DNA of 64,000 nucleotides from Bacteroidia bacterium (lineage in GTDB: Bacteria > Bacteroidota > Bacteroidia > M30B66), in the NCBI GenBank assembly GCA_018401705.1, contig JAGYKL010000013.1, forward strand, positions 1-64,000, read 5' to 3'. Made by a program: the position numbers and the translations under genes. Within the stretch, counting starts at the first letter, position 1. Each line of letters begins with the position of its first letter. The notes beneath the pieces were generated by a model that was not told where the DNA came from, did not search any database, and was given only the letters and a program-made list of their open reading frames with translations. Of this stretch, positions 23,304 to 45,587 are shown one piece after another.

Positions 23304-24233
23304 CTAAGATTTATTGAATCGCAGATTTGATAAACTACTTAGAATATGGTTGTTGTCTATTATTAAGCCAGATGCACTCATTCCGATAAAAACCATGCTG
23401 CTCAGCATTTGAATAATTAATAATTCAACAGCGATATTCTGAAAGCATAAATTCTGCCAGGCAGGAATTAATAAAATGCTAAGATTAAATAATGAAATTA
23501 TTGTGAATTGAGCATTAATTATGGATTTAGACAGCTTAATTTTTGAAGCTGAATTGATCTTGATTTGTTCATTAAAATTCTTGATACTTTGCATTTCAAC
23601 ATTTGTAACGTACATTCTCTCTAATGCGATGTTAAATAGTAATGTGAAGCTTAATATTATAAAAAGTAAAATAAAACTCGTGCTTAAATGTGGTATTGAT
23701 TCATTAACAACTGAAATAGCCAATAAAGTTCCAGCATTAAAATAAATAAAGGCAAAATATATAATTCTGGAAATTGAGAATTCGCTAATCCCAACATGAG
23801 AAAGTTTCTCACTTTTTCTAAATACCTTAGTATTAAAAAGAGCTAAAGTGATAAATATTAATAGAATAAAAGTAAATATTGCCGAGAATCTTAGCTTTTC
23901 AGCTCTCTTATATTCCTCATAGGTAATGTCATCATTTACTGTTAAAGGCATTGGTAATGCCAACACAAGGGTGTCATCGTAAATTTCTTGCATTATTTCA
24001 GTTTCTCTTTTGTAAGAGTCTCTCATTATTTCTGAAATTGCCGGCAAAGTGCTATTTGCTTTCTCTGACTTTGAAGGATCAACAGATCCTAAAGCAACCA
24101 GGTCAATTGTGATTTTCTTGCCTTTAGAATTTGCTTGATTGTTTAATTCATCAAATGTCATTGAATTAGCTGAAACGCTAAATAGTGAAAATAATACATT
24201 CAATAAAACGATGGTAGTGAGGCTGGTTTTCAT
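23304..24233 (-). CDS. unknown membrane protein, paralogue A (IDLVALG family)
   Basis: I do not recognise the family. It has a signal-like N-terminus (1-22) and an extracytoplasmic stretch with IDLVALG (43-49), SEIMRDSYKR (67-76) and DITYEEY (102-108). About five transmembrane helices follow (116-134, 147-176, 184-203, 239-258, 266-291). The same three motifs and layout occur in the protein at 25911-26819, so the two are clear paralogues. Both have the same promoter architecture and an upstream ACGTG-type site. With signal peptide plus helices it should sit in the inner membrane. The nearby kinase/regulator pair suggests a signalling or stress role, which is inference only. Confidence 0.75.
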   Translation of the reverse strand: MKTSLTTIVLLNVLFSLFSVSANSMTFDELNNQANSKGKKITIDLVALGSVDPSKSEKANSTLPAISEIMRDSYKRETEIMQEIYDDTLVLALPMPLTVNDDITYEEYKRAEKLRFSAIFTFILLIFITLALFNTKVFRKSEKLSHVGISEFSISRIIYFAFIYFNAGTLLAISVVNESIPHLSTSFILLFIILSFTLLFNIALERMYVTNVEMQSIKNFNEQIKINSASKIKLSKSIINAQFTIISLFNLSILLIPAWQNLCFQNIAVELLIIQMLSSMVFIGMSASGLIIDNNHILSSLSNLRFNKS

Positions 24234-25910: not shown

Positions 25911-26819
25911 TTAATAATTGTTTTGATGTTTAAACTCTTGTCTTGAGAAAAATGCGGGTAAGAGATTTATCTCTAGTGAATAAGTAAGTAGGAGTATTAA
26001 ACTGCTAATCAATTGAATTGCAATTTGTTCATCAAATACCTTAAGCATTTGCATTTCACTCCAAGTAGGTACCATGAATACAGTCATATTGATTAATGAG
26101 ACTATTGGATATTGAATGTATTTGAGAATTTTATTATTTGAGATATTGGTTTGACTCAAGTGCATTCCTTCCTTTTTAGATTTGATGGAAATAAAATGGT
26201 TATCACCGTTATCATGCTTCTCAAGAAAGACATTAATCATGTATGTTAAAATGATGATTCCTAGTAGAACTATAGAGTTTAATGATAAACCAGGGAGATT
26301 ATGATTAACAATTAGACTGGAAATCAATGTTCCTATGAATAGGAAAACGGACACATATAGCACAATTCGTGAGATTGATAATTTAGCTGAATTATCGCTT
26401 TGTACTTTATTCGATTTCTTGAATAGGCTGCTATCATAAAGAGCAAGTAAACTGAAGATTAGTAGCAAGAGACAAAAAATTCCACAGAATTTTTTTCTTT
26501 GATTTGCTTGATATTCCTCATAAGTGATATCATTTGATGTTGTATTGACAGAAGCATTGCTCTCTTCGATTGATTCTGAAGTATTATCTGTAATTCTAAC
26601 ATATGTATCTCTCATCAGTTCAGAAACTGAAGGGCTGTTTGCTGCACTTTTGTCTAAGGAAAGGGGCAAAGCTCCAAGCGCAACTAAATCGATTGCAATA
26701 TTATGAGAATCGCTATCCAGGTTTTGCTTTAGTTGCGTGATACCTTTAACATTTAAACTGCTTATCGTCAGACTTAGTAGAATAACTAAAATGATGTTGT
26801 TGGTTAGATATGTTTTCAT
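25911..26819 (-). CDS. unknown membrane protein, paralogue B (IDLVALG family)
   Basis: 302 residues, unrecognised family. It shares with the 23304-24233 product the signal-like N-terminus, IDLVALG, SELMRDTYVR, NDITYEEY, an LFKKSNK loop after the first helix, and SISRI before the second. About five transmembrane helices. The extracytoplasmic part is Ser/Asn-rich between the MRDTY and DITYEEY motifs. It lies just downstream of the kinase/regulator operon and has its own promoter and ACGTG-type palindrome. Its natural 3' flank was interrupted by the IS. Confidence 0.75.
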   Translation of the reverse strand: MKTYLTNNIILVILLSLTISSLNVKGITQLKQNLDSDSHNIAIDLVALGALPLSLDKSAANSPSVSELMRDTYVRITDNTSESIEESNASVNTTSNDITYEEYQANQRKKFCGIFCLLLLIFSLLALYDSSLFKKSNKVQSDNSAKLSISRIVLYVSVFLFIGTLISSLIVNHNLPGLSLNSIVLLGIIILTYMINVFLEKHDNGDNHFISIKSKKEGMHLSQTNISNNKILKYIQYPIVSLINMTVFMVPTWSEMQMLKVFDEQIAIQLISSLILLLTYSLEINLLPAFFSRQEFKHQNNY

Positions 26820-27699: not shown

Positions 27700-28470
27700 T
27701 TATGCAAGGTGTAAAGTTACTGTAGTGCCTTTGTTTTCTTCTGATTTAATTGTTAGGTTTAGTTTTGCCAGGGCTGCTCTCTTCTTCATATTTTTTAAAC
27801 CATTTGCCTTTCCTGAATTAATCGTATCATCTAACGAGAACCCTTTCCCATTATCGGTAACTTGAAGCAGAAAATCAGGAGAATTACTTTTCACTGTTAA
27901 TTTAGTTGCTTCAGCATGCTTTATTGTATTATTTATGAGTTCCTGAAAGATTCTAAAACTCATTAGCATTTGATCCTTATCCATATTAGGATACTTAAAG
28001 GTGCCAGGTCTGTATTCTACATCCATGGTAGTAAATCCTGATAATCTATCTACTTCTTCGTTAATTGCATCCTGAAAGGTAAGACCACTCAAATAGTCCA
28101 TATTCATAGATCTACTCAATAACCTTAATTGTCCAGATGCCTGATCAAGTAACTCCTCAAAAGGCTTAAATGATGCAGCAACCTCTGGAGAATCAAGTTT
28201 TCGATTCTCGATTATTAACCGCATGTACGTAAGAGTATGACCAACATGATCGTGCAATTCACGAGATACGTGTGACATAAGTTGTTCTCGAACTTCAAGT
28301 TCTGCATTTCTCAATTCTTTCTCATATATAAGCTCTAATTGTGACATCTTCATTTCCTGACGAAGCCTTTGTCTGTTGGAGATAAAAATTGAAATAATAA
28401 CACTTGCAACCAGTAATAGAATTACTAGTGTTATTACAATTATACCAATATAGAGAGACTCATCATTCAT
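27700..28470 (-). CDS. NarX-type sensor histidine kinase (HisKA_3)
   Basis: 256 residues: one N-terminal transmembrane helix (~7-31), coiled coil, dimerisation/phosphoacceptor domain with H73 in SRELHDHVGHTL, then HATPase with FQELINNTIKHAE (N box), DNGKGF and GLKNMKKRA. There is no sensory domain of its own, so signal input probably comes from the membrane protein encoded just upstream, whose stop overlaps this start by eight bases (ATGAATGA). Confidence 0.93.
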   Translation of the reverse strand: MNDESLYIGIIVITLVILLLVASVIISIFISNRQRLRQEMKMSQLELIYEKELRNAELEVREQLMSHVSRELHDHVGHTLTYMRLIIENRKLDSPEVAASFKPFEELLDQASGQLRLLSRSMNMDYLSGLTFQDAINEEVDRLSGFTTMDVEYRPGTFKYPNMDKDQMLMSFRIFQELINNTIKHAEATKLTVKSNSPDFLLQVTDNGKGFSLDDTINSGKANGLKNMKKRAALAKLNLTIKSEENKGTTVTLHLA

Positions 28471-29098
28471 GGGCTATTGGCGAAAGTTTGTTCTTCCAAA
28501 CAACGATGAAAGCAATTGCTATTAATCCGTATCTAACATACATAAGCGATTTGATAATGTAGTCAAATAGTTCATTGGCCATATCTGTATTTTGTTCAAT
28601 TATCATTTCTCTTCCGATGAAGTATGGTGTTATACCTAAACAATAAATAACATGAGCCATAGCAATAATCATCAATGGATTTTTAGAGAATGATTTATTT
28701 ACTTCAGGATGTATAATATAAATAAGATTCAAACTGGAAATAAATATGAAGCTAACAATGATTAATTTATAATCAAGTTTAAATAAGTTATGTGTGCTTA
28801 AACTTATGATTGTGAATAAAGCATAAATAAGAATTGAGATTCTTATTCCCTTCTTTATTTTCTCTGATTGAAATGAAAAATATACAAGTCCGGATAATAA
28901 TAAGGTTTCAATGATATCATATATATTGTAAATAACCTCATTAGAGGTTCCCTGCTTTGAAAATTGATAGGCTATATAATCAGTAATTAAAGAAATAAAA
29001 ACTTGAAAAATCAGCAATCTATAAGCCCAATTAAGCCTTCCAAACATTGGAAGGCTTAATATTAAGACTATTAGCTGAGCGTATAGTTCTACAGGCAT
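28463..29098 (-). CDS. polytopic membrane protein, likely sensor partner of the kinase
   Basis: 211 residues from the ATG at 29098, with six or seven hydrophobic helices and no long loops. I know this only as a type often found before NarX-like kinases in Bacteroidota. The frame is open further upstream to 29248 and there encodes a cysteine motif (SQLCPTKCG), but that part resembles the tail of a neighbouring secreted protein, so I place the start at 29098. Eight-base overlap with the kinase implies tight co-translation. Confidence 0.75.
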   Translation of the reverse strand: MPVELYAQLIVLILSLPMFGRLNWAYRLLIFQVFISLITDYIAYQFSKQGTSNEVIYNIYDIIETLLLSGLVYFSFQSEKIKKGIRISILIYALFTIISLSTHNLFKLDYKLIIVSFIFISSLNLIYIIHPEVNKSFSKNPLMIIAMAHVIYCLGITPYFIGREMIIEQNTDMANELFDYIIKSLMYVRYGLIAIAFIVVWKNKLSPIAHE

Positions 29099-29168
29099 TA
29101 TATACTCTATAGAATTAATATTTATTGATAGTATATTTATCCATTCGTTTCTCTTAGCTTCTATTTTA

Positions 29169-29248
29169 CCGCATTTTGTTGGACAAAGCTGACTGAAATT
29201 GGCAGATAGAGATGGAAGTCCTCGGCAATTAATTATCTTTATTATCAT
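29169..29248 (-). pseudogene. fragment resembling the C-terminus of the 30189 gene
   Basis: Encodes LSANFSQLCPTKCGKI, against AANMSQLCPTKCGSI at the end of the protein at 30189-31085. The DNA is also alike (CCGCATTTTGTTGG at both places on the plus strand). Either a leftover 3' end of a duplicated gene or a shared short module; no start of its own is convincing. Confidence 0.4.
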
Positions 29249-30188: not shown

Positions 30189-31085
30189 TTAATTCTTTAT
30201 CCTGCATTTATCTTCAACAATGTTTACAATTATACTTCCGCATTTTGTTGGGCATAATTGTGACATGTTGGCTGCATTGCCCGAGAAGATTCCTTGTCCG
30301 GGAGGAGGCGGTTCTGATAGTGGAGGGAAAGTAGATATTGTGATGCAATGACGTAATGATCCTGTCTCAGTGCGTACGCCTGAGTTAAAATATAAAAAGG
30401 AGGCATTTCCATTATCTTTTACCAGGCTATGCACTACATTGGTTGGAAATAGAACCGAACCCGGATCACATCTTCCTTTATTTCTGCAATCAAGATCAAA
30501 GTTCCTTTCCCCAACTAATCTTCTGTCAATTTTAATATAAGACACGTAATTCATCCAGAATTGCATCGCTTCCAGTCTTTTGCTTTCATTTCCAATTATG
30601 TTAACAAGGTCTCCCTGATCATTAACTTCGTACAATGCTGTAGTGTTTCTGCCCATGAACGACTTAACATCCATTTCCGTCGGACTAACATCCATGTAAT
30701 AGTCACCACCACCAATTGCGATAGGTTCGCCAAGTGAGGCTTTCGTGAAGTAAAGTTTTATCTGTTTTTTGTCAATATCTAAACCATAAAATACTTTAAG
30801 TGCCGGCACATAACCTCCATCACAATCCTCAGTGAAAGTTGTTAAAATTTGAGATGAACGAACTTTGGTGTATTGAGTGCCGTTAAATTTTGACTCAACT
30901 TTGTCCTTTTCAATAGTAATATCTTTTGTGAATTTTGTCGACTGCGAATTCATATCTCTAACCAAAAGAAAGTGGTTGGATTGTTCGATTTGATATGGGC
31001 AATCCTCCTTGCTTTGTGCAAAGAGTCTGTTTTTACCAAGATTGGGTAAAAGAATAATAGAGATTAGAAGTAGTAGATTTTTCAT
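30189..31085 (-). CDS. secreted protein of unknown family with C-terminal CPTKCG motif
   Basis: About 298 residues from the ATG at 31085, which starts the signal peptide MKNLLLLISIILLPNLGKN. The alternative ATG at 31109 lies inside the likely -7 box (31107-31114). Paired cysteines (EDCPYQ, EDCDGG, LDCRNKGRCDPG) suggest a disulfide-containing exported domain. A proline-rich linker (PPLSEPPPPGQG) leads to SQLCPTKCG and a short tail. No T9SS sorting domain and no known enzyme motif. Upstream is a TTCACGTG...CACGTGAA palindrome, tying it to the membrane paralogues. Confidence 0.72.
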   Translation of the reverse strand: MKNLLLLISIILLPNLGKNRLFAQSKEDCPYQIEQSNHFLLVRDMNSQSTKFTKDITIEKDKVESKFNGTQYTKVRSSQILTTFTEDCDGGYVPALKVFYGLDIDKKQIKLYFTKASLGEPIAIGGGDYYMDVSPTEMDVKSFMGRNTTALYEVNDQGDLVNIIGNESKRLEAMQFWMNYVSYIKIDRRLVGERNFDLDCRNKGRCDPGSVLFPTNVVHSLVKDNGNASFLYFNSGVRTETGSLRHCITISTFPPLSEPPPPGQGIFSGNAANMSQLCPTKCGSIIVNIVEDKCRIKN

Positions 31086-31106
31086 AATAAAGGTTAGATT
31101 TATACG

Positions 31107-31114
31107 CAAAGATT
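31107..31114 (-). promoter_or_regulatory. candidate -7 box AATCTTTG
   Basis: Seven of eight to TAnnTTTG, giving a leader of about 15 bases for the gene starting at 31085. Confidence 0.4.
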
Positions 31115-39593: not shown

Positions 39594-42500
39594 TTATTTA
39601 ACTAGTCTTTGAACTAAACGTTCAGTTGATGTTGATACAGAAATAGTATAAACTCCTAGTGCGTAATCATTAACATTTAAGCGGATGTTAGTTTGATTAT
39701 TCAGAGATGTTACTTGCTCAGCATAAACTAATCTGCCAGCAGTATCAAATACTTCTAAAATCATCTTCTCATCAGCTTTAGTTCCGTCAATTCTAATCAC
39801 AGTGAAATCATCAGCCGGATTTGGATAAAGACCTATTGTTTTTACCTCATCAGGAGTACTGTTGTTATCACCAGCCATTCTAGCTCCAGCATTGTAACAT
39901 GGACCTAATGCAATTACAGCATCAATATCAAATCCATCAGCTGATCCACCGAAGCGGCTGCTATTGATATCAGAAATATCAGTAATTCTAATAAACTGTA
40001 CGAAAGTCATTGAACCAAGGTCAATTGAACCATCTAAGCAGATCTCACCTAAATCAGTCCAGCTTACATTGTCAAAAGAACCTTCAACCTTAGCATGTTC
40101 AGGATAGTTAAGACAAGATGGGTTACCAAAACTTGTTTCTACAATCTGAATATCATCGCCATCATTGTTGAATACAACGTAGTCAAATGCTAATTCAAGT
40201 GAACCTCCGAAACCAAGAGAAACAAAGTTGTAATTGTCTCCATACTGAGGTCCGTCTAAAGCTTTAGCTGGATCATTTCTCATTCCGCTAATAGCATCTC
40301 CGTTTTTCTGAGCACCAGGGACGTAGTTCGAGAATCCTTGCGCAGTGCATGGAACTAATCCATCATCACCTGGGTTATCAGCAGAACCGTTTAGACACTC
40401 AATACCATTTAAGTCATATCCATCTGCATCTGCAGGGAATAATGAAGCATCAGAAGCATCCATGATTTTGATATACTGAGCCCAGCTAAGTACTCCCAAA
40501 TCAAATTCGCCAGAATGAACAGTACTGCCTAAGAATACGAAGTTAACACCATCCTGCGAAGCAAATACATTTGCAGTTTCAGGATAATCTTCAGCAGTAT
40601 AATTCCAAGTAGTTTCTACTACACGTACATCGGCACCCGGACCGTTAGCAATTGGACCATCAAAAGCAAGTGTAATGTGCCCGCCAAATCCTAGTGCGTA
40701 GAAATCAACAGTACCTACAGGTGCAGCAACTGGTAAATCAAGTGCGTTGTCTACAACACTTCTTTCAGCAACTACATCTTCGCCGTTTGCTTGCTTACCT
40801 TGATTAATGTTGAATGCTTCTACACCAACACAATTAGGCTGAACATAGCGACCATGGATACACTCAACAGCATCAACATCATATCCATCTGTAGTAATTG
40901 AGTTACCAAATTCAGCTGGATTACTGATATCTACAATTCTTACGAATCTGATATAGTCAGCGAAAGCACCACCAAAATCAACTTCACCACCTTGAGCTAC
41001 TTCACCAACAGGAACATAGCCTAAACCATCCTGGGAAACCTCAATTCTAGCTTTCTCAGCATTTGGAGATGCAGAAGATTCCCAAATCTTGATGTCATTT
41101 CCAGGGCCATTTGCAATTCCATAACCGAAGTCGATTTCAATCGAACCTCCGAAACCTAGTGAGAAGAAGAATTGCTCTGGAGCCATTACGCTTGGGTTTT
41201 GAGCATCAGGTGCACCTAATACACGACCTGGAATTGAACGTTCAGGAAGGACTGCATTGCCGTCTTTTCTCAATCCTTGGTTAAATGCATAAACTTCAGC
41301 ACCAAGACATCCATCTTGATTAGGTATTACCGTTAATGTTAAGATAACTGTTGAGTCACACTGAGCTGCATTTTGGAAATATGCTGTGTATTCACCCTCA
41401 GCAGTAAGTAAGTTACCATCAAATTCATATGAATCACCTTCATTGATAGTTGCTGAGATGTTTGTAATAGCAGAGCTTTCATTAATTGTAAGGTTCAATT
41501 CATAATTCTGGCAATCTTGAGAGTATGTGTAAACACCTGTTGAAGTATAAGTTTCACCATTAACACTCCAAGTGTAGCTATCACATTCTGTGATTTCAGA
41601 AGCTATTACTTCATTTGGCTCTCCAGTAACATCCCAAGAACAAGAAGTTGTATTGAAAGATGCAACTTCATAACACTCTACCTGAGGTTCAACTGGCATA
41701 TCACCAGTTACATCCCAAGCACAAGTAGTTGTGTTGAAGTTAGCAGTTTCGTAGCAAGCCGTTTGAGGTTCAGCTGGCATATCACCAGTTACATCCCAAG
41801 CACAAGTAGTTGTGTTGAAGTTAGCAGTTTCGTAACAAGCAGTTTGAGGTTCAGCTGGCATATCACCAGTTACATCCCAAGAGCAAGTAGTTGTATTGAA
41901 ATCTGCAGTCTCATAACAAGCAAGTGTAGGCTGAGCCGGTTGTTCACCCGAAACATCCCAAGAACAAGTAGTAGAATTGAATTCAGCGTTTTGCCAGCAT
42001 TCAAGAACCGGTTGTTGAGGCTGAGGAATAATTGTAAGGTTTAAAGTTACCAAAGAATCGCAACCTGCAGCGCTAGCTCCTGGAAATAAAAAAGTAGGTG
42101 TGTTTGTTGATTCAGTGTAAGTAACACCATCAATCCATGTATAAGAAGCGCAAGCTGCTTGCTGATCTATTCCTGTAGAGAATCCTGAACTAACAGTGGC
42201 GTTATCTGAAACTTCATTAGCATTATCTGCAATAGCAGTAGCTAAATTATCGAAGTTTGCAGGAGGAACTCCAACAGTTGCTGTAACCTGAATTGAAACA
42301 GTTTGATCAGCAGTTAGGTTTCCTGCATTATAAGTTAAAGTGTTTCCTGAAATAGAAGAACCATTTGGAGCAGGAGCAACAATTTGAAGATTAGAGAATC
42401 CACTAGGAAATTCATCTTCAATGCGAACATTAATTGCTTGATAATCATATAAACCTCCAGTATTTGTAACTGATATAGTAAAGGTTACTTGTTCGCCAGC

Positions 42501-43517
42501 GCAAACACCAGATTGACTCACCGATTTTTCAATTTCAAGTTCAGTACCGCAGATTACGTTCACAACGGCAGCTAATTGAGAAGCCAGATCTTCAAAATCT
42601 CCAATTGAATAGTCATCTGTAAAGATGTCGCCATTAATTGCAAAATTATCATCACCAGAAATAGCTTTTATATTATCAATATTTAAGTCAGAGCCAATTC
42701 CAATACCAAACATGTGTTTTCCTTGTGCTTTGATTAGATTAGCTTCAGCGATGGCTCTATTCAAAGCCTCACTTGCACTGTAATTTCCATCATTCGGTGT
42801 TCTAACACCACATTCTCCACTTCTGTTATATGCAGTTGGATTTCCATCAGTGAAGAAAATCACAAGATCTCCTTCCAGGCCAATAACCTCTTCCAGAGCA
42901 TCTTCCCAATTAGTCCATCCGGTGCAGTTTCCTGATGAAACAGGATTATAGCTTTGCGAATTATAAGATGAAGTTAAGTAATTGGTGAACCTATTTACAA
43001 ACGTATTATTAACGGTGGTTACACCTAAATTTACCACACTCGCAGTGGTAGCAAATTCAACAATTCGAAGGCTTGCTCCTGAATTGTTAAGTGCGTTGGC
43101 TAATGCCAATGCCCCATTTTCAACATTGGCGGCTTCAGTGCTGTTTATTGAACCAGACTCATCTAAAACAAAAATTACATCCAAATTTGTGCATGAGGTA
43201 TTTGGAGGTAAATCTGGATTTGAATCCGAATCAGTTCTGAGTGCTCCAACTGCTGAATTGTAAAGTGACGCAGCAAAAGACTTAGCTGTCATGCCGTCAG
43301 GCACAATTAATTGATCTGGAGCAGAATAAATAGAGCGAGTTTCTCTGATTCGTTCGACTTTTTGTTTTTCAAGACTATGATTCATAGTCTTTACTTGAGC
43401 GTTAAGGTCAGTTGTTTGCCAGAGAGACAAAAACAAACCTAACAAGAAAACGGCGATTGACGAACTCGTTCGCCAGGCTTTTCTCTTGTTTGAATTTAGA
43501 GAGTAGGTTGTTCTCAT
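39594..43517 (-). CDS. giant T9SS surface protein with vWA domain and internal repeats
   Basis: 1307 residues. Signal-anchor-like N-terminus (~18-40). A von Willebrand A domain begins at ~110 with DVIFVLDESGSI, the MIDAS DxSxS. Next a DUF11-type adhesin domain, five 27-residue repeats of form CYETANFNTTTCAWDVTGDM (residues ~507-641), a short Ig-like region, and three ~125-residue repeats, each with a GFGGS core and DGYD(V/L)(D/N)(A/G)(V/I)EC end. Last is the T9SS type A domain IGLYPNPADDFTVIRID ... LVQRLVK. A likely adhesin or matrix protein at the cell surface. Monocistronic, own terminator. Confidence 0.88.
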   Translation of the reverse strand: MRTTYSLNSNKRKAWRTSSSIAVFLLGLFLSLWQTTDLNAQVKTMNHSLEKQKVERIRETRSIYSAPDQLIVPDGMTAKSFAASLYNSAVGALRTDSDSNPDLPPNTSCTNLDVIFVLDESGSINSTEAANVENGALALANALNNSGASLRIVEFATTASVVNLGVTTVNNTFVNRFTNYLTSSYNSQSYNPVSSGNCTGWTNWEDALEEVIGLEGDLVIFFTDGNPTAYNRSGECGVRTPNDGNYSASEALNRAIAEANLIKAQGKHMFGIGIGSDLNIDNIKAISGDDNFAINGDIFTDDYSIGDFEDLASQLAAVVNVICGTELEIEKSVSQSGVCAGEQVTFTISVTNTGGLYDYQAINVRIEDEFPSGFSNLQIVAPAPNGSSISGNTLTYNAGNLTADQTVSIQVTATVGVPPANFDNLATAIADNANEVSDNATVSSGFSTGIDQQAACASYTWIDGVTYTESTNTPTFLFPGASAAGCDSLVTLNLTIIPQPQQPVLECWQNAEFNSTTCSWDVSGEQPAQPTLACYETADFNTTTCSWDVTGDMPAEPQTACYETANFNTTTCAWDVTGDMPAEPQTACYETANFNTTTCAWDVTGDMPVEPQVECYEVASFNTTSCSWDVTGEPNEVIASEITECDSYTWSVNGETYTSTGVYTYSQDCQNYELNLTINESSAITNISATINEGDSYEFDGNLLTAEGEYTAYFQNAAQCDSTVILTLTVIPNQDGCLGAEVYAFNQGLRKDGNAVLPERSIPGRVLGAPDAQNPSVMAPEQFFFSLGFGGSIEIDFGYGIANGPGNDIKIWESSASPNAEKARIEVSQDGLGYVPVGEVAQGGEVDFGGAFADYIRFVRIVDISNPAEFGNSITTDGYDVDAVECIHGRYVQPNCVGVEAFNINQGKQANGEDVVAERSVVDNALDLPVAAPVGTVDFYALGFGGHITLAFDGPIANGPGADVRVVETTWNYTAEDYPETANVFASQDGVNFVFLGSTVHSGEFDLGVLSWAQYIKIMDASDASLFPADADGYDLNGIECLNGSADNPGDDGLVPCTAQGFSNYVPGAQKNGDAISGMRNDPAKALDGPQYGDNYNFVSLGFGGSLELAFDYVVFNNDGDDIQIVETSFGNPSCLNYPEHAKVEGSFDNVSWTDLGEICLDGSIDLGSMTFVQFIRITDISDINSSRFGGSADGFDIDAVIALGPCYNAGARMAGDNNSTPDEVKTIGLYPNPADDFTVIRIDGTKADEKMILEVFDTAGRLVYAEQVTSLNNQTNIRLNVNDYALGVYTISVSTSTERLVQRLVK
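41595..41999 (-). repeat. five 81-base tandem repeats inside the vWA surface-protein gene
   Basis: In-frame units encoding 27 residues with pattern C-Y-E-x(3)-F-N-T-T-x-C-x-W-D-V-x-G. Units 3 and 4 (41676-41837) are nearly identical in DNA, showing recent duplication; the outer units have diverged. Confidence 0.88.
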
Positions 43518-43712
43518 AGATTAAGTATTTAAGGTTAGGGATTAATTCAAATTATTAGACAATAGGTTTCCATTATGAGCATGAAATGCCCAATTGAAAA
43601 CATCTATGAATAAATAGGCATTTATTCTTCAGATGCTCAAAACAGAAAAATGAGATTAAAAGAGAGTGATGTTTAGAGTATTCACTTTGAAGTTAGGTTA
43701 AGGTTAGTGACA

Positions 43713-43745
43713 CAAATATACTTCATCGATGTAAGAAATGTTACA
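43713..43745 (-). promoter_or_regulatory. promoter and operator-like palindrome of the vWA gene
   Basis: Perfect -7 box TATATTTG (43713-43720, minus strand). TGTAAGAAATGTTACA (43730-43745) is an inverted repeat (TGTAA-N6-TTACA) covering the -33 region. The leader would be ~190 bases. Confidence 0.5.
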
Positions 43746-43861
43746 TAAATTGATGAAAAAAAATCATTTATGCAGCTGCGAATTGCATAAGTACCATATA
43801 ATCAAATATATACAATTGTATTTAAATTGCAAATGGATTAGAGTTTAATGATAGAATTAAA

Positions 43862-44023
43862 CAAAAACCGGGATTTTACACTGTAAAATCCCGGTTGAAG
43901 TTTATCCGAAAAGGGTATCGGATAAAATGGTCCGTATTGAGCAGCCGGACCGTCTTAATTGTGTACACAACCACCTCTTAAGACATGTCATTGATAGAGT
44001 TAGGCGCTTTTTTACAATGACAT
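43862..44023 (-). ncRNA. candidate small structured RNA ending in an intrinsic terminator
   Basis: Read 5' to 3' on the minus strand, five consecutive perfect stems: ATGTCATTG/CAATGACAT (44023-43985), GTCTTAA/TTAAGAC (43984-43952), GGTCCG/CGGACC (43951-43929), TTTATCCGA/TCGGATAAA (43926-43901), and AACCGGGATTTTA/TAAAATCCCGGTT (43896-43866). The last stem runs into TTTTTGTTT, a strong terminator. A near-consensus -7 box (GATATTTG, 44034-44027) ends just before the first stem. Length ~160 nt. I could not match it to tmRNA, RNase P, SRP or 6S RNA. A leader or attenuator for the vWA gene is an alternative. Confidence 0.55.
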
Positions 44024-44026
44024 GAA

Positions 44027-44034
44027 CAAATATC
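44027..44034 (-). promoter_or_regulatory. candidate -7 box of the small RNA
   Basis: GATATTTG, seven of eight to TAnnTTTG, with the first hairpin starting about four bases later. Confidence 0.45.
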
Positions 44035-44054
44035 TTTAAGCATTTTTATTTCTC

Positions 44055-44070
44055 TACGTGTAAAACACCC
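44055..44070 (+). promoter_or_regulatory. ACGTG-type site upstream of the candidate small RNA
   Basis: TACGTGTAAAACACCC: 16 bases identical to the minus strand at 24350-24365, 19 kb away. It overlaps the expected -33 region of the small-RNA promoter. Confidence 0.5.
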
Positions 44071-44270
44071 TCCCGGGGGAGGTGAAAATTCCCATAAAAG
44101 TAATTTTCGTATCTAATGACCTGACATGTAGTTGTTTGCAATTGTTGTCAAATCAAAGACTCATTATGCCAAATGAATATTGGGGATTCAACTCATAATT
44201 TAGTTGCAACACAATCACCGTTAAAGAAAACGACAAATTCATGAAGCAACATTATAAATGAATAGTAGGA

Positions 44271-45527
44271 CTATGTTTTTTGTTTTTTCTTTTTCGCGGC
44301 AGGAAAAAGGATATTGTTCAAAATTAACCTGTATCCAGGTGAATTAGGATGCAGGTTTAAATCCGTTGGCGGATCGCCAACTTTATGCTCATAATCTTCT
44401 GGATCATGACCTCCATAAAAAGTCCAAGTTCCTTTACCGAACTCGCCATGAATATATCTTACTTCTGAAGCAGCTTTATTTTCACCTAAGACCAAAGCAC
44501 TACTTTTAACTTGATTCTTATTAAATGCGGTGGTCTGACCCATAAATCCTTTAATTATTTTCTCATGATTTTGGCATAACATGGTAGGTACCGGATCCCA
44601 TTTTGCTGAAAATTCAAACAATGCAAAATAGTCCTCTTTTTCAGGAATTCTTCTTGTTCTTGTTGCATCAATACTAGAGAATTCATATTCCATTGGATTG
44701 GTGCTCAGCGTAAAATCCTGAAAAGCAAAACAATTATCAAAATTGAGCTTTTGTTGAGCAGTTGGGTCGGCCGGATCTCCGTCGAACATACTTTCACAAA
44801 TATCCAGTCCATCCGCTGAAAGCGAAATATCATAACTATCAGTTGCAGAGCACATAGCAAAGAGAAATCCTCCACCAACGGTGAAATCTCTAATTTTTTT
44901 AGCAACCGCTAATTTTAATTCTGATACTTTATTAAAGCCTAATTTATTGGCCAAAGCTTCAGCATTCTTTTGATTCTCCTGATACCAAGATTGGTTTCTG
45001 TATGCATACCAGAATCTCCCGTATTGTCCAGTAAAATCCTCATGGTGGAGATGCAGCCAGTCGTAAAGGGGAAGTTTATCGGTAATTATTTCTTCATCAT
45101 AAACAACATCATATGGTATCTCTGCATAAGTTAAGGCTAGCGTTACAGCATCATCCCATGGTTGTTTATCCTTTGGTGAATAAACTGCAACTCGCGGTGG
45201 CTTTTCTAATTTAACTGCATCCATATTTACTTCAGGAGAAGCAATTTCCTGAAGTATAGCATTTGATTGCGCATTTGCAATTATCTGGTAAGATACTCCT
45301 CGTATTAAACATTCATTTTCAATATCCTTAATATTATCGATTAAAAAGCTCCCGCCACGGTAGTTAAGCAACCAATACAATTCAACATCATTTTGAAGAA
45401 TCCAATAAGCAATACCATAAGCTTTTAGGTGGTTCTGTTGCTTTTCATCCATATGGATGAGGATAGAAGCAGATTTTACAGGAATTAAAATCAAGCTTAG
45501 CAGACAAATAAGGACAATTCTTTTCAT
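44271..45527 (-). CDS. exported protein often labelled asparagine synthetase B in Bacteroidota
   Basis: 418 residues from the ATG at 45527, which opens a signal peptide (MKRIVLICLLSLILIPVKSA). An upstream TTG at 45551 is not credible. The sequence matches a conserved Bacteroidota family (LKAYGIAYWIL, WLLNYRGGSFL) that databases often call asparagine synthetase B, yet no glutaminase Cys2 or PP-loop synthase motif is present, and the protein is exported. Motifs GGGFLFAMCSATDSYDI and WTFYGGHDPEDYEH recall class I amidotransferase-like or ThuA-like folds. I would treat it as an exported protein of unknown function. The basic tail is KKKKQK. Confidence 0.78.
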   Translation of the reverse strand: MKRIVLICLLSLILIPVKSASILIHMDEKQQNHLKAYGIAYWILQNDVELYWLLNYRGGSFLIDNIKDIENECLIRGVSYQIIANAQSNAILQEIASPEVNMDAVKLEKPPRVAVYSPKDKQPWDDAVTLALTYAEIPYDVVYDEEIITDKLPLYDWLHLHHEDFTGQYGRFWYAYRNQSWYQENQKNAEALANKLGFNKVSELKLAVAKKIRDFTVGGGFLFAMCSATDSYDISLSADGLDICESMFDGDPADPTAQQKLNFDNCFAFQDFTLSTNPMEYEFSSIDATRTRRIPEKEDYFALFEFSAKWDPVPTMLCQNHEKIIKGFMGQTTAFNKNQVKSSALVLGENKAASEVRYIHGEFGKGTWTFYGGHDPEDYEHKVGDPPTDLNLHPNSPGYRLILNNILFPAAKKKKQKT

Positions 45528-45587
45528 GCTTTTGTAACGTTTTGTATTCAACGATATTTTAGATGAACAGTTTCGAAGCTTAATCGT

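Follow-up and report, generated by a model that had tools for sequence, protein, structure and literature searches.

A terminated chain of five hairpins as a candidate intergenic small RNA in an uncultured Bacteroidia bacterium

In an uncultured Bacteroidia bacterium, a 164-base intergenic stretch folds into five hairpins, the last of which is a transcription stop signal. The chain lies on the minus strand at 44025-43862 of the window, i.e., the whole 64,000-nucleotide stretch of DNA that was analysed; its structure is non-random, it ends in a terminator, it is present in a single copy, and it has no detectable relatives. The preferred reading is an independent, lineage-specific intergenic sRNA of ~165 nt encoded on the minus strand, the chances of which we put at about even. 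This interpretation is partly supported by the structure, the strand, the terminator and the lack of an Rfam match, while the promoter claim is weak.

Anatomy and genomic setting of the hairpin chain

The five perfect stems stand back to back and comprise 10, 6 (or 7), 6, 9 and 14 pairs, i.e., 45 pairs in 164 nt. The original prediction had counted the stems correctly but had given their lengths as 9, 7, 6, 9 and 13 pairs; it had also described about 160 bases with almost no gaps, and indeed the stems span 44024-43866 with inter-hairpin gaps of 0, 1, 2 and 4 nt. HP1 (43984-44024, -10.4 kcal/mol) is formed by 10 pairs between CATGTCATTG and CAATGACATG, closing a 21-nt loop (TAAAAAAGCGCCTAACTCTAT). 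HP2 (43953-43983, -6.7 kcal/mol) pairs TCTTAA with TTAAGA over 6 pairs, or 7 if G43984 is taken from HP1 (G43984-C43952), and its 19-nt loop contains a 12-nt palindrome, TTGTGTACACAA. HP3 (43929-43951, -9.5 kcal/mol) consists of GGTCCG/CGGACC, 6 pairs, with an 11-nt loop (GCTGCTCAATA), and HP4 (43901-43926, -10.0 kcal/mol) of TTTATCCGA/TCGGATAAA, 9 pairs, with an 8-nt loop (TACCCTTT). HP5 and its U-rich tail TTTGTTT occupy 43859-43896 (stem 43866-43896, 14 pairs, 3-nt loop, -19.2 kcal/mol); a terminator scan called the 14 pairs and the T-run, so that the 3′ end is an intrinsic terminator on the minus strand, as had been proposed. A stem with a U-tract at its end is found on the minus strand only. 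HP1 to HP4 carry no U-tracts and have large loops, and their stems are perfect and not decayed.

The chain is located between two minus-strand genes, in an interval (43518-44270) that holds no ORF of at least 60 aa. The upstream gene (44271-45551) encodes a conserved Bacteroidia protein that was found in 38 of the 40 Bacteroidia genomes searched, mostly at 63-83% identity, and for which neither Pfam nor NCBIfam gave a match at E 0.001. The downstream gene (39594-43517) encodes a VWA/DUF11 protein with a T9SS type A sorting domain, which also contains ~27-residue tandem repeats (CYETANFNTTTCAWDVTGDMPAEPQTA). In relatives, including the sole genome of the same genus, a different gene mostly follows the upstream gene directly and the hairpin chain is absent, which means that this genome has a different arrangement here. 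Conservation of the upstream gene does not extend to its neighbour, so that the search yielded no intergenic region orthologous to this one.

Two further pairs of minus-strand genes were observed elsewhere in the window. The predicted proteins of 28463-29248 and 30189-31109, otherwise different, share SQLCPTKCG followed by x-I, near the start in one and near the end in the other. Those of 23304-24233 and 25911-26819 are related predicted membrane proteins, with IDLVALG followed by SELMRDTY or SEIMRDSY, which flank a stretch without long ORFs.

Structure and hairpin density compared with chance

The MFE of a 201-nt minus-strand stretch is -62.3 kcal/mol, as against -36.9 +/- 4.2 for its shuffles (z -6.1), and none of 200 shuffles was as good. 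The plus strand of the same stretch gives a similar value (z -6.4), since the stems are perfect. Hairpin density was scored in each 500-nt tile by adding up the pairs of non-overlapping perfect hairpins that fit within 165 nt, the background being 444 kb of the 3.7-Mb genome. The locus ranks first in this background with 43 pairs, a score that omits HP1, one base of which is already taken by the 7-pair form of HP2, and counts in its place a stem of 7 pairs past the terminator (43843-43862). Among 1000 dinucleotide-shuffled versions of the 753-nt intergenic region, the maximum was 35 pairs and none matched the density of the chain, and no tile in 1.16 Mb of related genomes attains 43 pairs. The second and third ranks in the same genome are taken by a double terminator and by a tRNA with a terminator, respectively, which indicates that high density marks real RNA features. 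The earlier assertion that such density is not expected by chance is therefore sustained, and the five-hairpin structure is non-random, intergenic, terminated and on the proposed minus strand.

Searches for related elements

The Rfam scan that had been called for returned no known family: the element has no match at the gathering score, where the only hit was a tRNA elsewhere, and raising E up to 10 gave chance matches only. BLAST against the element's own genome found the element itself only, and BLAST in 60 relatives found no homologue. With a covariance model built from the single sequence, searches of 10 family, 295 class and 396 phylum genomes, as well as 80 loci around the upstream gene, yielded chance-level matches only; the best match at phylum level (L201) is a terminator of similar appearance, located where a coding gene ends. 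Nothing like the element was seen in phage and plasmid records or in one viral pattern scan. A dispersed repeat (REP, MITE or attC array) was ruled out by the single copy in the genome. An attC site had been considered for the GTTAGGC-like motif that the HP1 loop carries on the plus strand, and was dropped for the same reason.

Among the 295 class genomes, the covariance model gave its best match (E 0.0026 per genome) to a genuine tracrRNA next to cas9 (L071), in which the stretch corresponding to HP2-HP3 is similar. This raises the question whether the element is a tracrRNA-like guide scaffold, i.e., an off-locus tracrRNA serving a type II CRISPR system, a reading to which we attach next to no credence. 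The core AGCAAATCACAATAAGGATTATTCCGTTGTGAAAACAT, present in nearly all tracrRNAs inspected at class cas9 loci, is absent from the element, only 4 of 23 class cas9 loci match the element's model at E < 0.1, and cas9 was not found in the element's own genome. The conserved type II-C anti-repeat and core AATCACAATAAGGATTATTCCGTTGTGAAAACAT are likewise not found in the element. The likeness to L071 is therefore best read as chance together with a shared hairpin-chain anatomy, and a tracrRNA identity was rejected on the missing core and the missing cas9. Bacteroidia type II-C tracrRNAs resemble the element in forming a hairpin chain that ends in a terminator and in their local similarity around HP2-HP3, but they possess a conserved core, whereas the element has none and its genome has no cas9. 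Among Bacteroidia type II tracrRNAs (cas9 loci L098-L120; e.g., L071 1501-1682), the core AGCAAATCACAATAAGGATTATTCCGTTGTGAAAACAT is near-invariant in many families, while the later hairpins are variable.

Possible transcription of the chain and competing interpretations

The candidate sRNA would have its own promoter, with transcription starting near 44025 on the minus strand and ending at the intrinsic terminator at 43866-43859. A putative -7 box, GATATTTG (44027-44034, -), would start the transcript at HP1; it has one mismatch to TAnnTTTG, a consensus documented for flavobacteria (PMC9723704). No TTTG or TTG is found ~19-21 nt upstream as a -33 partner. Moreover, the same intergenic region holds 11 further minus-strand boxes that deviate from the consensus at no more than one position, so that the GATATTTG box by itself carries little weight. 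The -7 box noted before the first hairpin is thus present, but as a promoter it is weak.

Since this promoter is poor and the hairpin between the upstream gene and the candidate RNA is weak, the main rival is a structured 3′ UTR, a possible though rather doubtful reading. In this case, the upstream gene (44271-45551) would give rise to an mRNA that reads through the terminator-like hairpin at 44082-44069 and carries the chain as its 3′ end, with HP5 as the real terminator; the hairpins of the chain would stabilise the message or be released as a 3′ UTR-derived sRNA. The chain does lie on the strand of the upstream gene, 246 nt past its stop codon, the intervening hairpin detected by the terminator scan (44069-44082, -) is limited to 5 pairs and followed by a short T-run (tail GTGTTTTACA), a good promoter was not found just before HP1, and UTR-derived sRNAs exist in B. 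thetaiotaomicron (PMC7366714). Yet a 3′ UTR of ~400 nt would be long, and in relatives, where the upstream gene mostly abuts another gene, no such tail is seen. The change of neighbour bears on another interpretation, which we regard as unlikely: an insulator or relic, made of stacked stop signals or inverted-repeat DNA that remained after rearrangement had brought the T9SS gene here, and whose RNA would serve only to end transcription. The order of genes after the upstream gene differs even within the genus, which implies that the spot has been rearranged, and two terminators stand back to back at another site of the genome (L089 15571-15660). Against such an origin, the element occurs only once and thus does not form a repeat family in this genome, and HP1 to HP4 combine large loops and undecayed, perfect stems with a lack of U-tracts. 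The double terminator at L089 (G000:C34) lies between converging genes, and its two strong terminator-like hairpins have 15 and 17 pairs.

An attenuator or riboswitch-like leader of the downstream T9SS-protein gene (39594-43517) would place the function of the chain on the other side, and appears very unlikely. The element shares the strand of this gene, with its terminator ~350 nt before the start codon, and the HP2 loop is able to pair with the leader at 43716-43694. However, a separate promoter of this gene, TTTG-N19-TATATTTG (43803-43833, -), close to the Bacteroidetes consensus, is located beyond the terminator, and a second perfect -7 box (43720-43713) also lies between the terminator and the gene; no competing anti-terminator fold is evident, and there is no Rfam match. 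As for the HP2 loop-leader pairing, its -17.8 kcal/mol was equalled by 41 of 1000 shuffled leaders, with four loops tried, and is not significant. It is highly improbable that the chain represents a novel class of strongly structured regulatory RNA, limited to an uncultured Bacteroidia lineage, in which the palindromic HP2 loop would allow dimerisation or kissing with another RNA and thereby control of the neighbouring gene for the T9SS-secreted protein. That the chain is the leader mRNA of a 29-aa peptide (MTCLKRWLCTQLRRSGCSIRTILSDTLFG, 43991-43902, -) deserves scarcely any belief: the frame is open over HP2-HP4, but a frame of 29 codons easily arises by chance, the stems constrain the sequence independently, and there is no homologue on which to test coding.

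The independent sRNA is favoured by the folding energy (z -6.1), the top density, the asymmetry of the U-tract, the absence of an ORF and the separate promoter of the next gene beyond the terminator, and by a length and anatomy like those of known Bacteroidetes sRNAs. Against it stand the poor promoter (one -7 mismatch and no -33), the failure to find a homologue and target screens at chance level; a screen of the loops against 301 gene starts gave nothing above chance. Such an sRNA would probably act through antisense pairing of its unpaired bases with mRNA, by analogy with GibS (PMC7366714), the most exposed of these being the large loops of HP1 and HP2, while the rigid stems and the terminator would guard it from decay. 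Its range would be this species or a narrow surrounding lineage.

Comparison with known Bacteroidetes small RNAs

The view that no known RNA class fits holds at the level of families but not of kind, since a terminated, taxon-restricted intergenic RNA of ~165 nt is ordinary in Bacteroidetes (PMC7366714, PMC9723704). The intergenic sRNAs of B. thetaiotaomicron include 49 high-confidence cases with both a TSS and a terminator, of which 27 are strain-specific (PMC7366714). The element resembles these sRNAs, which are often strain-specific as a class, in length, intergenic place and Rho-independent terminator, as illustrated by GibS (145 nt; PMC7366714). GibS, however, has a single-stranded 5′ seed and only two metastable hairpins before its terminator and is conserved across Bacteroides (PMC7366714), whereas the element is almost wholly paired and no relative of it was found.

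In Flavobacterium psychrophilum, independent transcripts of similar length have been mapped, and strong structure is predicted in 40% of the non-antisense ones (PMC9723704). Rfp18, one of these independent transcribed regions or sRNAs, is conserved in its genus and has an experimental transcript (PMC9723704), whereas the element has neither attribute; the two are alike in length, Rfp18 being near 176 nt, and in lying outside annotation and Rfam (PMC9723704). If transcribed, the chain would be another orphan sRNA, here adjoining a secreted-protein gene, in a phylum in which small RNAs have received little attention; it would inform how fast such RNAs arise and by itself opens no new mechanism. 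Although no known family fits, the kind is already known: such orphan sRNAs are routine in Bacteroidetes, and the candidate would be an unproven addition to them.
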